Source of the DNA: a virus
Virus record (IMG/VR): IMGVR_UViG_3300042924_006566
Coordinates: 1 to 64,000 of that record
DNA: 64,000 bases
Direction: 5' to 3' (one strand)
Part shown: positions 40,868 through 45,099 of the stretch, one piece after another
Layout: the number at the start of each line of letters is the position of its first letter
Numbering within the stretch: position 1 is the first letter of the stretch
The notes under the pieces: model-generated
Databases searched by the model: none
Told to the model about the DNA's origin: nothing
The model's input: the letters and a program-made list of their open reading frames with translations, nothing else
Made by a program: the position numbers and the translations under genes

Positions 40868-41518
40868 ATGCCTAGTTTAAATGACTTCAAATCCAGTTTT
40901 AGAACCGACTTGGCAAGAACAAGTAGATTTAATGTCATGGTGCCTATTCCTAGCGGATTTTTGAATGGCAACTTGTTTAATACGAGTGAAACACCATCTG
41001 GTGCGGCCGAATCATTAGTATCTGGTACTGAACAATCTTTTACGGTCACCGCAGAAAGACTTACCAGATATTCGACAATTAGAAGTTTAATCTTTCGATG
41101 CGAAAATGCAAACTTACCTGGCCGAAATTTAGCGACAGCTGATCAGAGAATATATGGTCCCATTGAAAAGCACCCATATCTTACAACATATAATGATATT
41201 GACTTAACTTTCATTGTCTCAGATAAGATGGAAGAAAAATTCTTATTTGACGATTGGATCGAATATATCAATCCTTCAGACACAAATAATTTTAGATACA
41301 GAGATCAATATCAAACAACATTAACAATCAATCAGTATGATGTAAATGATTTTCCTTCATATACTGTAGAATTGTATGAAGCTTTTCCAATTTCGATCAA
41401 TCAAATGGATCTGGATTGGGGTAACGATGGTTATCATAAGATAACTGTGACTTTTGCCTACACATATTGGAAAAATTATAGAGGACTAACAAATAATATT
41501 TTATTGAATTTTACATGA
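40868..41518 (+). CDS. Tail-tube-fold protein (gp19/gp54-like)
   Basis: A 216-residue protein with the features of T4 tail-tube-fold proteins. It has a short N-terminal helix and a first strand (DLARTSRFNVMVPIPSGF), then FRCENANLPGRNLATADQRIYGPIEKHPYLTTYNDIDLTFIVSDKMEEKFLFDDWIEYINP. It ends INQMDLDWGNDGYHKITVTFAYTYWKNY, a typical tube-subunit C-terminus. The major tube protein normally lies beside the sheath gene in the head cluster, so this copy next to gp26 is more likely a baseplate-tube adaptor such as gp54. It starts directly after the upstream stop. Confidence 0.75.
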   Translation: MPSLNDFKSSFRTDLARTSRFNVMVPIPSGFLNGNLFNTSETPSGAAESLVSGTEQSFTVTAERLTRYSTIRSLIFRCENANLPGRNLATADQRIYGPIEKHPYLTTYNDIDLTFIVSDKMEEKFLFDDWIEYINPSDTNNFRYRDQYQTTLTINQYDVNDFPSYTVELYEAFPISINQMDLDWGNDGYHKITVTFAYTYWKNYRGLTNNILLNFT

Positions 41519-41528
41519 AGGAGTTATT

Positions 41529-42254
41529 ATGGCTTTGCCCAAAATTGATACACCAACCTATGAATTGACATTACCAGTTTCCAAGAAAAAGATTAAATAT
41601 AGACCATTTCTTGTTAAAGAACAAAGAAATCTTTTGATGGCAATGGAATCTAATGAAACGGAAGAAGTTCATAGAGCAATCAAAGATGTTTTAGTAAACT
41701 GTATTCTGACAAAAAATATAAAGGTTGATGAACTGCCCGTAATCGATGTAGAATATCTTTTCATTCACCTGAGGGCAAAGTCTGTTGGTGAAGTTGTTGA
41801 ATCAAAATATAGATGCAACAACTTTGTTGAAGGAAAAGAATGTAATAACATCATGGACAATCAATTAAATCTTTTAAATTTAAAAGTTGAAATTAATTCT
41901 GAGATTAAACCAGAAATTCAATTGAATGAAAAGTTGACTGTCAAGTTTAAATATCCAGAATTTGGTAAAATTAAAGACTCATTAAAATATGAAAATGCCG
42001 GTGAAATGACATTCAGTATGATTGCACACAGTATTGAGTACATTTATGATGGTGAACAATTTTACTATGCAAAAGAATCTACAGAAAAAGAATTGATTGA
42101 ATTTATAGAGTCGATGAATCAACAACAGTTTGAGAAAGTAGAAGAATTTTTTGGCAATCTACCAAAGTTAAGAGATAAAATTGAAATGAAATGTGGCAAA
42201 TGTGGTTTCGAACATAAAATTGATGTGGAAGGCCTAGAAAGTTTTTTCGGTTAA
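41529..42254 (+). CDS. 26: Baseplate hub assembly protein gp26
   Basis: A 241-residue protein of the T4 gp26 family (T4 gp26 is 208 aa), involved in hub and tape-measure assembly. MALPKIDTPTYELTLPVSKKKIKYRPFLVKEQRNLLMAMESNE is the characteristic start. A Cys pair in KYRCNNFVEGKECNN and a CGKCG knuckle near the C-terminus could bind zinc. AAGGAG lies 6 nt upstream of ATG 41529. The last codons contain a -1 slippery heptamer, so a fraction of ribosomes should produce a longer form. Confidence 0.85.
   Translation: MALPKIDTPTYELTLPVSKKKIKYRPFLVKEQRNLLMAMESNETEEVHRAIKDVLVNCILTKNIKVDELPVIDVEYLFIHLRAKSVGEVVESKYRCNNFVEGKECNNIMDNQLNLLNLKVEINSEIKPEIQLNEKLTVKFKYPEFGKIKDSLKYENAGEMTFSMIAHSIEYIYDGEQFYYAKESTEKELIEFIESMNQQQFEKVEEFFGNLPKLRDKIEMKCGKCGFEHKIDVEGLESFFG
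42242..42248 (+). promoter_or_regulatory. Probable -1 ribosomal frameshift site T-TTT-TTC
   Basis: In the gp26 frame the codons read AGT TTT TTC GGT TAA, giving a canonical X-XXY-YYZ heptamer (T TTT TTC) two codons before the stop. Slipping by -1 reads through as CGG TTA ACA and stays open for 62 codons to TAA at 42434. That frame has no ATG near its beginning. Confidence 0.75.
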
Positions 42255-42436
42255 CATTTCGTCATGATGATTTGAGAAATTACTACAAAACTAATTTCTC
42301 TTTGGTGCAACACCACAAATACAGCCTTACGGAACTTGAGAATATGATGCCGTGGGAAAGAGACATTTATATTTCCATGTTGATACAATATATTGAGGAA
42401 GAAAATCAAAAATTAAAAGAACTAAGACGATCATAA
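42248..42436 (+). CDS. Frameshift extension of gp26 (G/GT-like)
   Basis: Sixty-two codons in the -1 frame after gp26, reading RLTFRHDDLRNYYKTN... then SLTELENMMPWERDIYISML and EENQKLKELRRS. The MPWERDIYxxxL pattern is typical of the T-like second half of phage tail-assembly chaperones made by frameshifting (lambda gpG/gpGT and relatives). With slippage the product would be about 302 residues. The only in-frame ATGs are far inside the conserved part, so independent initiation seems unlikely. The next gene starts directly on its stop. It is a probable tape-measure or hub chaperone. Confidence 0.75.
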   Translation, partial: RLTFRHDDLRNYYKTNFSLVQHHKYSLTELENMMPWERDIYISMLIQYIEEENQKLKELRRS

Positions 42437-43798
42437 ATGGAAAAAGAAAAACTAAGTATTTCGGAAAAGTTAAAGAACAAGGTGTCTTCACTTTTCAGTT
42501 TAGGTTCAGTTGATGCTGAATCCACTGGTGTTCAGTTTAAAACATCCAGAACAGCTCTAGGTGAAATTTTTAAAATTATGGTCAGACTGGAAGAAGAAAG
42601 AAAAGTCAGGAGTGAAATAGAAAATCTTAGTTTAAAATTGGATGGTTTAAGAGAAAACAAAAGAAATCGCGAACTAATTAAAGCTCTGACTGGCCAAAAA
42701 CTGAAAAAAGTTAAGCCTGAAAAAGTAATCAAAGAAATACCAAAAGAATCTAAGGGCGAAAAACCTCCAAAAGAATTAAAAAAACCTACGGAAGTTACCA
42801 CATTACCGCCTGTTGCAACCAAGCCTCCTGTTACCACCACAACCCCACCGGTGACAACAACCAAGCCTCCTGTTACCACCACAACCCCACCGGTGACAAC
42901 AACCAAGCCTCCTGTTGCAACTAGACCGCCGGCCGCACCGGCACCACCTGTGGCGGCACCAAAACCACCGGTTGCACCGACTAAACCGCCTGCACCACCG
43001 GCAACACCAACAAAACCACCAGTTGCAGTATCTAAACCACCAATAGTTCCATCTATTGCGGTCGGAACAGCCGTGACTGCAGCTTCATTACAAAAAGAAG
43101 CACTTGCAAGAATATCATCCAAAGAGGGCTTTGCGGGTAAATCTTATCTAGATCCGAAGAAAGGTGATCCTAGAAAATTATATTCTGTTGGTTATGGTCA
43201 TCAAATTACGGAAAATGAAATAAAAAATGGTTACATCATGGCAGGCAATAAAAAAATTCCTGTGTTAGGTGAAAGAGGAAAAGACACAGTTATTTCTAAA
43301 GAAGATGCATATGAACTCTTAAAACAGGATTATCCGAAATATGAGGAAAATGCAAGAAAAATTCCAAATTTTGATAAATTGAATCTTCAAGCACAAACAG
43401 CTCTTGTTGATATGACATATAACATGGGCGTCAATTGGTATAAAAATTGGCCAATTTTAATGAAGCAGTTAGAAAATCTTCAGTTGGATGAAGCATCAAA
43501 AAATATACTTTCTTCCGTTTATGCCACACAGGTAAAAGGTAGGGCCAAAGAAAATGCCGAATCTATTAAAAATGGTTTAAAGAATATACCAATACAAGAA
43601 CCGAGAATAAATGCACCAAATCTACCTGTAGATTCTTTGTCAAAAGAAAATAAAAACTTGAAGCGCGAAATGAATGAAACGGCCGGCAACATAATCAATA
43701 ACATAAACAATGTTGCACAAACATCACAATCGCCACAGATAGATACCAAAAAGGTAGAAGAAATCACACCACCACTAATTAGAAAATCGAGACAATAA
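42437..43798 (+). CDS. Tail/hub protein with Pro-rich linker and lysozyme domain
   Basis: A 453-residue protein. Residues 1-95 are helical (MEKEKLSISEKLKNKVSSLFSLG...RENKRNRELIKALTGQ). Residues 115-210 are a Pro/Thr/Lys-rich linker with repeated KPPVTTTTPPVTT units. Residues about 220-375 are a GH24/T4-lysozyme-like domain, with the catalytic Glu in SSKEGFAGKSYLDP and the LYSVGYGHQI motif (Ser replaces the usual Thr of TxGYGH), then LVDMTYNMG. The C-terminal tail contains NNINNVAQ, a motif also in the next gene. It probably cuts peptidoglycan during injection, replacing the lysozyme domain missing from gp5 here. Confidence 0.82.
   Translation: MEKEKLSISEKLKNKVSSLFSLGSVDAESTGVQFKTSRTALGEIFKIMVRLEEERKVRSEIENLSLKLDGLRENKRNRELIKALTGQKLKKVKPEKVIKEIPKESKGEKPPKELKKPTEVTTLPPVATKPPVTTTTPPVTTTKPPVTTTTPPVTTTKPPVATRPPAAPAPPVAAPKPPVAPTKPPAPPATPTKPPVAVSKPPIVPSIAVGTAVTAASLQKEALARISSKEGFAGKSYLDPKKGDPRKLYSVGYGHQITENEIKNGYIMAGNKKIPVLGERGKDTVISKEDAYELLKQDYPKYEENARKIPNFDKLNLQAQTALVDMTYNMGVNWYKNWPILMKQLENLQLDEASKNILSSVYATQVKGRAKENAESIKNGLKNIPIQEPRINAPNLPVDSLSKENKNLKREMNETAGNIINNINNVAQTSQSPQIDTKKVEEITPPLIRKSRQ
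42827..42907 (+). repeat. Tandem Pro/Thr-coding repeat in linker
   Basis: Near-identical DNA units of about 42 nt (AAGCCTCCTGTTACCACCAC followed by AACCCCACCGGTGACAACAA) occur in tandem within the lysozyme protein linker and encode KPPVTTTTPPVTTT. They make an extended linker and could vary in copy number. Confidence 0.75.
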
Positions 43799-45099
43799 TG
43801 GACTATCAAATAGCAAGAAATATAAGAAACAGATCGCTTGCTGATGTTATAGCAGCTAATCTTGTTGCTGGCGAATCTTATTCTGGTGCATTTACAAAAG
43901 GAATTAGTCAAAAGTCTGTTGCGAGATTGACTAGAATAAAAGAAAAATTTGATCCTTTAAATATTGCAAAATTTTTAACTGGTGGATCAAATCTTGCGCC
44001 GGCGTTATTGGGTAGAATGTTAGGTAGAAGTCAAAGAGACATTCAGTATTTTGCTGGCACTGCAAGACCTATTGGTAGAAATACAACTGCCGACAGAATT
44101 GGCGCTTTGCCTAGAGGTGATGGTGGTTCTACTCTGGGAATATTGACTGATATTTTTAATTTCTTGAAGTCTAATCATGAAAATGAAAAAAATAGATATG
44201 AACTATTAAACAATCGCCGTGAGGAAGAAGACTTAGAAAAAGAAAAAAGACATAAAGAATTAATCAAAGCGATTACAGGAGTCGGTACAGGCACTATCAA
44301 TAAACAACCAAAAGAAAATGATGGTTCACTTTTCGGTTCAATTTTAGAAACGATCAGAAAAATGTTCGAATCGTTCAAAGGTTTAGTTCAAGTGATGATA
44401 GAAAAGTCTTTAGATTGGTTGATGGGTTTAAAACCATTTGTGAGTCTATTGGGTGGATTCGCAAAAAATATATTGTCTGCACTACCTTTAAAGGCGTTAG
44501 TTGGTACTGCAGCTGGTCCTGCAGCTTTTGCCGCAGCATTATTGGGATTCGTATCTTTTACGGGTGAAAAAAGAAAACAAATAGAAGCTGATCCTTTCAA
44601 TCCAAAGTTTGATAATGATGCATATGCACTACAACTGAGAGGACAAGCAAAGAGTGAAAAACAAGGTGGTGAACAACTTCGCAGACGTGCGGTAAGAGAT
44701 ATGTCGGCAAGTTATGTAAGAGAATTAATAGGTAGCAACCTCAACGACCAAGAACTTGTACAAGAAACCGGAAAAACTCGTAAAGAATTGCAAGAATGGT
44801 TAACTGCAAATCCAAAAGGTATGCTCAGACCTATTAATGTGCCGGCATTACCCACTACACCAGCAGAACCACCAATCATGCCAAGAATGGGACCGCAACA
44901 ACTTGAAAGTGTTGTCAAAGAAAATCAAACATTAAATCTTCCAAAGGCACCAGCGGCCGCTCCTGTTAATAATTTGACAAATGTTTCACAGACACAAAAG
45001 AACCAATCAATGATCATTTCGAAACTGGATAAAATATCTGTTCGAAATCCAGAAGAAACATTTCAAAGAATGATTTACTATTCAACAAGAGTAGTTTAA
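43798..45099 (+). CDS. Helical tail/hub structural protein
   Basis: A 433-residue protein translated from an ATG that overlaps the upstream stop (TAATG). A charged coiled coil (NEKNRYELLNNRREEEDLEKEKRHKELIKAITGVGTG, about residues 125-165) ends in LIKAITG, matching LIKALTG in the lysozyme protein. A hydrophobic helical stretch follows (SLLGGFAKNILSALPLKALVGTAAGPAAFAAALLGFV, about 215-252). The C-terminal NNLTNVSQTQKNQ repeats the NNINNVAQTSQ motif of the upstream gene. The two are diverged paralogues at their ends. A hydrophobic helix is common in tape-measure and hub proteins that enter the host membrane, but the assignment is tentative. Confidence 0.75.
   Translation: MDYQIARNIRNRSLADVIAANLVAGESYSGAFTKGISQKSVARLTRIKEKFDPLNIAKFLTGGSNLAPALLGRMLGRSQRDIQYFAGTARPIGRNTTADRIGALPRGDGGSTLGILTDIFNFLKSNHENEKNRYELLNNRREEEDLEKEKRHKELIKAITGVGTGTINKQPKENDGSLFGSILETIRKMFESFKGLVQVMIEKSLDWLMGLKPFVSLLGGFAKNILSALPLKALVGTAAGPAAFAAALLGFVSFTGEKRKQIEADPFNPKFDNDAYALQLRGQAKSEKQGGEQLRRRAVRDMSASYVRELIGSNLNDQELVQETGKTRKELQEWLTANPKGMLRPINVPALPTTPAEPPIMPRMGPQQLESVVKENQTLNLPKAPAAAPVNNLTNVSQTQKNQSMIISKLDKISVRNPEETFQRMIYYSTRVV

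Follow-up and report, generated by a model that had tools for sequence, protein, structure and literature searches.

Background

Frameshifting in tail assembly chaperone (TAC) genes is reportedly conserved in several groups of T4-like phages, with T4 itself using genes 26 and 51. The TACs of T4-like phages were identified in a study by Vladimirov, Gautam and Davidson (2022, Virology 566:9-15), which enters here as cited in two later papers: PRFect (PMC10885494) refers to it for pairs of short and fused chaperone genes in some T4-like phages, and a 2025 paper (PMC12846349) for poly-T -1 signals in T4-like TAC-N genes. A 2016 review named T4 as the exception to the conserved G/GT frameshifting (PMC5009743). 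Both T4 proteins, gp26 and gp51, have been classed as hub assembly chaperones; the particle lacks gp51, and whether the T4 hub contains gp26 is disputed (PMC3004832). Sullivan et al. 2010 described cyanophage and marine vibriophage gp51 as being without ~200 N-terminal residues (PMC3037559).

Here we describe the gp26 locus of an uncultured T4-like phage, found in a stretch of 64,000 nucleotides that we call the window (positions 1 to 64,000 of IMG/VR record IMGVR_UViG_3300042924_006566, which holds 156,624 bases). Its zero-frame product corresponds to T4 gp26 and its putative frameshift product to T4 gp51, all belonging to the same family, PF12322; unlike the window, T4 makes gp26 and gp51 from separate divergent genes with no frameshift. 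Since frameshifting in T4-like TACs has been published, as far as the citing papers convey it, the mechanism is already known in principle and the window is a new case of it. By the same citations, the locus is the frameshifting version of the T4-like TACs of Vladimirov et al. 2022, and the window's lineage may not be among the genomes of that study. What we add is this lineage, the breadth of the conservation and features at the RNA level.

Slip site and frame layout of the gp26 locus

The genes and the slip site of the locus are as follows.

40868-41518, plus strand: tail tube protein gene (gp19-like), directly upstream of gp26 (PHROG 45, E 8e-40; PHROG 3629, E 1.5e-30)
41529-42254, plus strand: putative short tail assembly chaperone gp26 (TAC-N, G-like), 241-aa zero-frame product (PF12322, PHROG 150, predicted fold)
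42242-42248, plus strand: slippery heptamer of gp26, T TTT TTC, in phase with its codons (read from the sequence; T TTT TTN in 184/184 junctions)
42248-42436, plus strand: -1 extension of 62 codons plus stop, gp51 / T-like domain (PHROG 634; conserved -1 frame in all complete loci)
42437-43798, plus strand: following gene, whose 453-aa product contains a lysozyme domain (PF00959, E 1.4e-10)
43798-45099, plus strand: second downstream ORF, 433 aa, possible tape-measure component by position (no family match at E <0.1)

The 3' end of the gp26 ORF reads AGT TTT TTC GGT TAA, which puts the heptamer in X XXY YYZ phase with GGT as the sole codon separating it from the stop. Slipping back by one base would give access to 62 codons that begin with CGG at 42248 and run to a stop at 42434-42436, which directly abuts the start ATG (42437) of the following gene; the resulting fusion would measure 302 aa, the last gp26 residue being swapped for 62 new ones. 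In the window, the first ATG of the -1 frame is its codon 32 (MMPWERD), and the only start-like codon ahead of it is a TTG at codon 8. At the gp26 locus, a short ORF carries an in-frame heptamer close to its stop, and a -1 ORF overlaps it. The first-pass annotation had placed the heptamer in frame two codons ahead of the stop, had a -1 slip open a 62-codon frame containing MPWERDIY and ending at the next gene's start, and had seen no nearby in-frame ATG in that frame; all of this agrees with our reading except for the spacing, which is one codon.

The layout is more than chance would give among the 112 ORFs of the window, on either strand, that reach 80 aa. Eight of the 112 carry any X XXY YYZ heptamer within their last five codons, and among these the gp26 ORF is the only one with at least 55 -1 codons past its stop. 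The runner-up, 57056-57550 (plus strand), carries A AAA AAC close to its end, followed by a -1 extension of 43 codons; our searches found no family match for it, and it is probably spurious as a second frameshift gene.

Downstream, the product of 42437-43798 joins a Pro/Thr-rich linker of PPVTTTT repeats to its phage lysozyme domain. This gene occupies the slot where relatives have a tape-measure-like gene, and tape measure genes or matches to them lie downstream of gp26 in S-PM2, K575, Cr30 and phiM12. A family search and a comparison with T4 gp29 and others returned no tape-measure identity for either 42437-43798 or 43798-45099.

Protein families and predicted fold

The gp26 ORF matched PF12322 (T4_baseplate) over positions 1-218 of the 219 in the model, with E 5e-62 and 209.8 bits against a gathering cut-off of 24.5, and matched PHROG 150 with E 3e-65. 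The -1 extension matched the C-terminal part of PHROG 634 (gp51, the baseplate hub assembly catalyst) over positions 56-114 of the 121 in that model, with E 1.3e-28. It also matched the C-terminal end of PHROG 150, from which it follows that some PHROG 150 members carry the extension in frame. The 156,624-base record contains one copy of PF12322, and a search elsewhere in it for a second gp26/gp51 copy found none.

The predicted model of gp26 had a mean pLDDT of 86. Its residues 1-88 aligned with 3fgx (Z 8.1), the HK97 chaperone gp13 in 2ob9 (Z 7.5) and YqbN in 3klu (Z 7.3), the next-best structure reaching Z 2.6; according to the structure-comparison tool a Z below 8 can be chance, and the three known TAC structures nonetheless head the list. 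All three, 3fgx as RBSTP2171, have been named as tail assembly chaperones (PMC9603447). Foldseek alone gave E values of 0.75 to 1.8 for 2ob9 and 3fgx with the gp26 model. A search for a solved structure related to gp26 by sequence yielded none that was credible, and for a model of T4-type gp51 no TAC appeared among the Foldseek candidates, a result with which a TAC relation is still compatible. Because the fold predicted for the zero-frame protein matches three known TAC structures, we assign the locus, on the strength of this model, as a G/GT (TAC-N/TAC-NC) locus.

Like lambda G/GT and other TAC-N/TAC-NC genes, the locus has a short ORF, a heptamer at its 3' end, a -1 extension, a tail tube gene upstream and a predicted TAC fold at the N-terminus. 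It departs from lambda G/GT and other TACs in three ways: at 241 aa its TAC-N is a long one and has further structure past the TAC-like residues 1-88, its heptamer is T TTT TTC, and its identity to the solved TACs is ~10%.

Conservation of the heptamer and the -1 frame

Relatives of the locus came first from 80 viral contigs, at 62-100% identity, and beyond these from cyanophage, Pelagibacter and other groups; viral contigs scanned with Vibrio K575 gp26 as the query gave no loci. In all, 184 junctions were compared, 179 of them read by script and five taken from named phages (Sf-CH1b, phiM12, Cr30, KVP40 and AF3). T TTT TTN stood in frame just ahead of the gp26 stop in 184/184, down to ~20-40% protein identity, and a conserved -1 frame of 58-70 aa followed the heptamer in the junctions examined. 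The groups covered include Kyanoviridae-like, KVP40-like, Caulobacter, Sinorhizobium, Rhizobium and Pelagibacter phages. Among the script-read junctions the heptamer was TTTTTTC in 168 and TTTTTTT in 11, always in the gp26 frame, and it was separated from the stop by one codon in 166, by none in 12 and by eight in one; the five named phages have TTTTTTC, TTTTTTT or TTTTTTG. The check that the first-pass annotation had proposed, conservation of both heptamer and -1 frame in relatives, thus held throughout. Its comparison with the G/GT layout held as well: the -1 frame is a conserved gp51 domain, the zero frame models as a TAC and a tail tube gene lies upstream.

The heptamer is conserved at the level of codon choice as well. 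In 27 representatives at <70% identity, the synonymous choices of xxT and then TTT were invariant, although Phe elsewhere in the same genes is encoded 182 times by TTT and 115 times by TTC. For independent lineages, the joint chance of the invariant xxT and TTT would be ~10^-13.2; the 27 are not fully independent, and the figure overstates the case. On the protein side, conservation of the -1 frame begins with its very first residues, ahead of any ATG in most loci, and 125 of the 175 complete -1 frames contain no ATG within their first 9 codons.

One gene and two predicted products

Layout, conservation, homology and predicted fold all point to one tail assembly chaperone gene that would give rise to two proteins through a -1 slip on T TTT TTC, a reading to which we assign a probability of about 0.92; the slippage itself, its rate and the chaperone role are what we infer. 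The majority of ribosomes would stop at the gp26 stop and release the 241-aa, TAC-N/G-like form. A minority would slip back one base on the heptamer and continue through 62 codons in the -1 frame; their product would be a 302-aa, TAC-NC/GT-like form whose C-terminal part would be the gp51 of cyanophage annotation. By analogy with lambda G/GT and T4 gp26/gp51, many short copies may coat the tape measure protein and few long copies may recruit tail tube subunits; by analogy, too, neither form would stay in the virion.

GenBank annotation implies something else, namely that gp51 is a separate small protein made from its own start or by stop-and-restart coupling at the gp26 stop, and we consider this very improbable. 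P-SSM2 and S-PM2 are indeed annotated with an ATG just past the gp26 stop, and KVP40, K575, Cr30, phiM12 and AF3 have a -1 frame ATG that overlaps or adjoins the stop (TAATG or TGATG), so that restart could operate alongside frameshifting in these five. The window has no such ATG; its first one lies past the conserved FRHDNLxNYYKTNF segment, and we reject a gp51 with its own start there because 32 codons pass without an ATG. The 125 frames counted above argue in the same direction, and a separate start leaves both the invariant heptamer and the fused gp51 of T4 unexplained.

It is less probable still that RNA polymerase, instead of the ribosome, slips on the T run to generate the -1 product. 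Every site is a T run, and a C48C1-like group has 8 T in a row, but the window and most relatives have only six. The C at position 7 in 168/179 junctions fits tandem slippage on X XXY YYZ, not a long homopolymer, and the phase with the gp26 codons is invariant. Finally, a one-base sequencing or assembly error in a truly continuous gene would look identical in a single genome, but the same split recurs in many independent assemblies and in cultured isolates, and this conservation refutes it.

Annotation of gp51 in public records

The first-pass annotation had expected the fusion to be normally missed, and public records do either split off gp51, as a separate and oddly short gene in cyanophages, or leave it out. 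The gp51 of Sullivan et al. 2010 and the window's -1 frame are the same C-terminal segment (PMC3037559). Those authors read it as a gp51 reduced by ~200 aa; we read it as the -1 extension of gp26 and not as a truncated gene. Ribosomal frameshifting into this extension would explain both the truncated-looking gp51 of cyanophages and the absent or wrong product in many public records. It also suggests a rule for annotation, by which a PF12322 gene ending in xxT TTT TTN is joined to its -1 frame.

RNA features around the slip site

Two elements flank the heptamer.

42227-42232, plus strand: GGAAGG, resembling a Shine-Dalgarno sequence and located 9 nt before the heptamer; may be a stimulator, a weak one in this phage
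42274-42300, plus strand: 9-bp stem GAGAAATTA / TAATTTCTC, 3' of the slip site; role uncertain (fold z)

Relatives often have GGAGGG at the Shine-Dalgarno-like position (GGARGG). The slip-proximal Glu codon, which belongs to this element, was GAG in 12/20 cases against 186/650 elsewhere (odds ratio 3.7, p 0.005). On the downstream side, the 70 nt beginning 5 nt past the heptamer in the window had a fold z of -2.6. Low folding energy was confined to the 70 nt from the heptamer's end, where z averaged -2.0; at 14 other offsets the mean lay between -0.8 and 0. Long stems that begin a few bases past the heptamer occur in individual lineages and differ from one lineage to another. A search for a consensus downstream structure in the window's own clade found none; because the clade shares no conserved downstream hairpin, we do not claim the window stem as a signal. 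Downstream RNA folding and the upstream Shine-Dalgarno-like element are suggestive only as stimulators.

The two-gene arrangement in T4 and Campylobacter phage CP220

The conservation suggests that frameshifting is widespread among T4 relatives, with the two genes of T4 as a departure. Both T4 proteins belong to PF12322 (gp26, E 9e-64; gp51, E 4e-52), and T4 gp51 is a full-length paralogue of gp26 with an extra C-terminal segment. In the alignment, T4-type gp51 runs in frame across the slip position, reading VFKLLVNPDEIFTFYQIN against SFFRLTFRHDDLRNYYKTN in the window. T4 gp26 (L091, 3303-3929, minus strand) also matched PHROG 1140, the gp28 family, weakly (E 9e-4); when gp28 was searched in turn against PHROG and Pfam, only its own family came back, plus a chance Pfam row.

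Whole records were found with either one or two PF12322 genes. KVP40, Cr30, phiM12, S-PM2, P-SSM2, C48C1, Mosig, AF3 and the window have one, with the heptamer. In T4 and in Campylobacter phage CP220 there is a pair, of which one gene is short and the other includes the extension in frame. In the tree, T4-type gp26 and gp51 lie on the same side of one branch (97/93), and the two CP220 genes group together (94/55) on long branches. Two separate duplications, one in the T4 lineage and one in Campylobacter phages, are possible on these sequences. It is conceivable, if on balance doubtful, that the one-gene frameshift and the two-gene solution are interchangeable, with at least two switches to two genes (T4 lineage, Campylobacter phages), and that, behind an invariant heptamer, RNA stimulators are replaced rapidly from one lineage to the next. 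The two CP220 genes (L090, 1856-2590, and L209) are diverged and lie far apart in the genome, and one of them has a gp51-like C-terminus in frame. The pair looks like a second two-gene version of the tail chaperone, possibly of independent origin.
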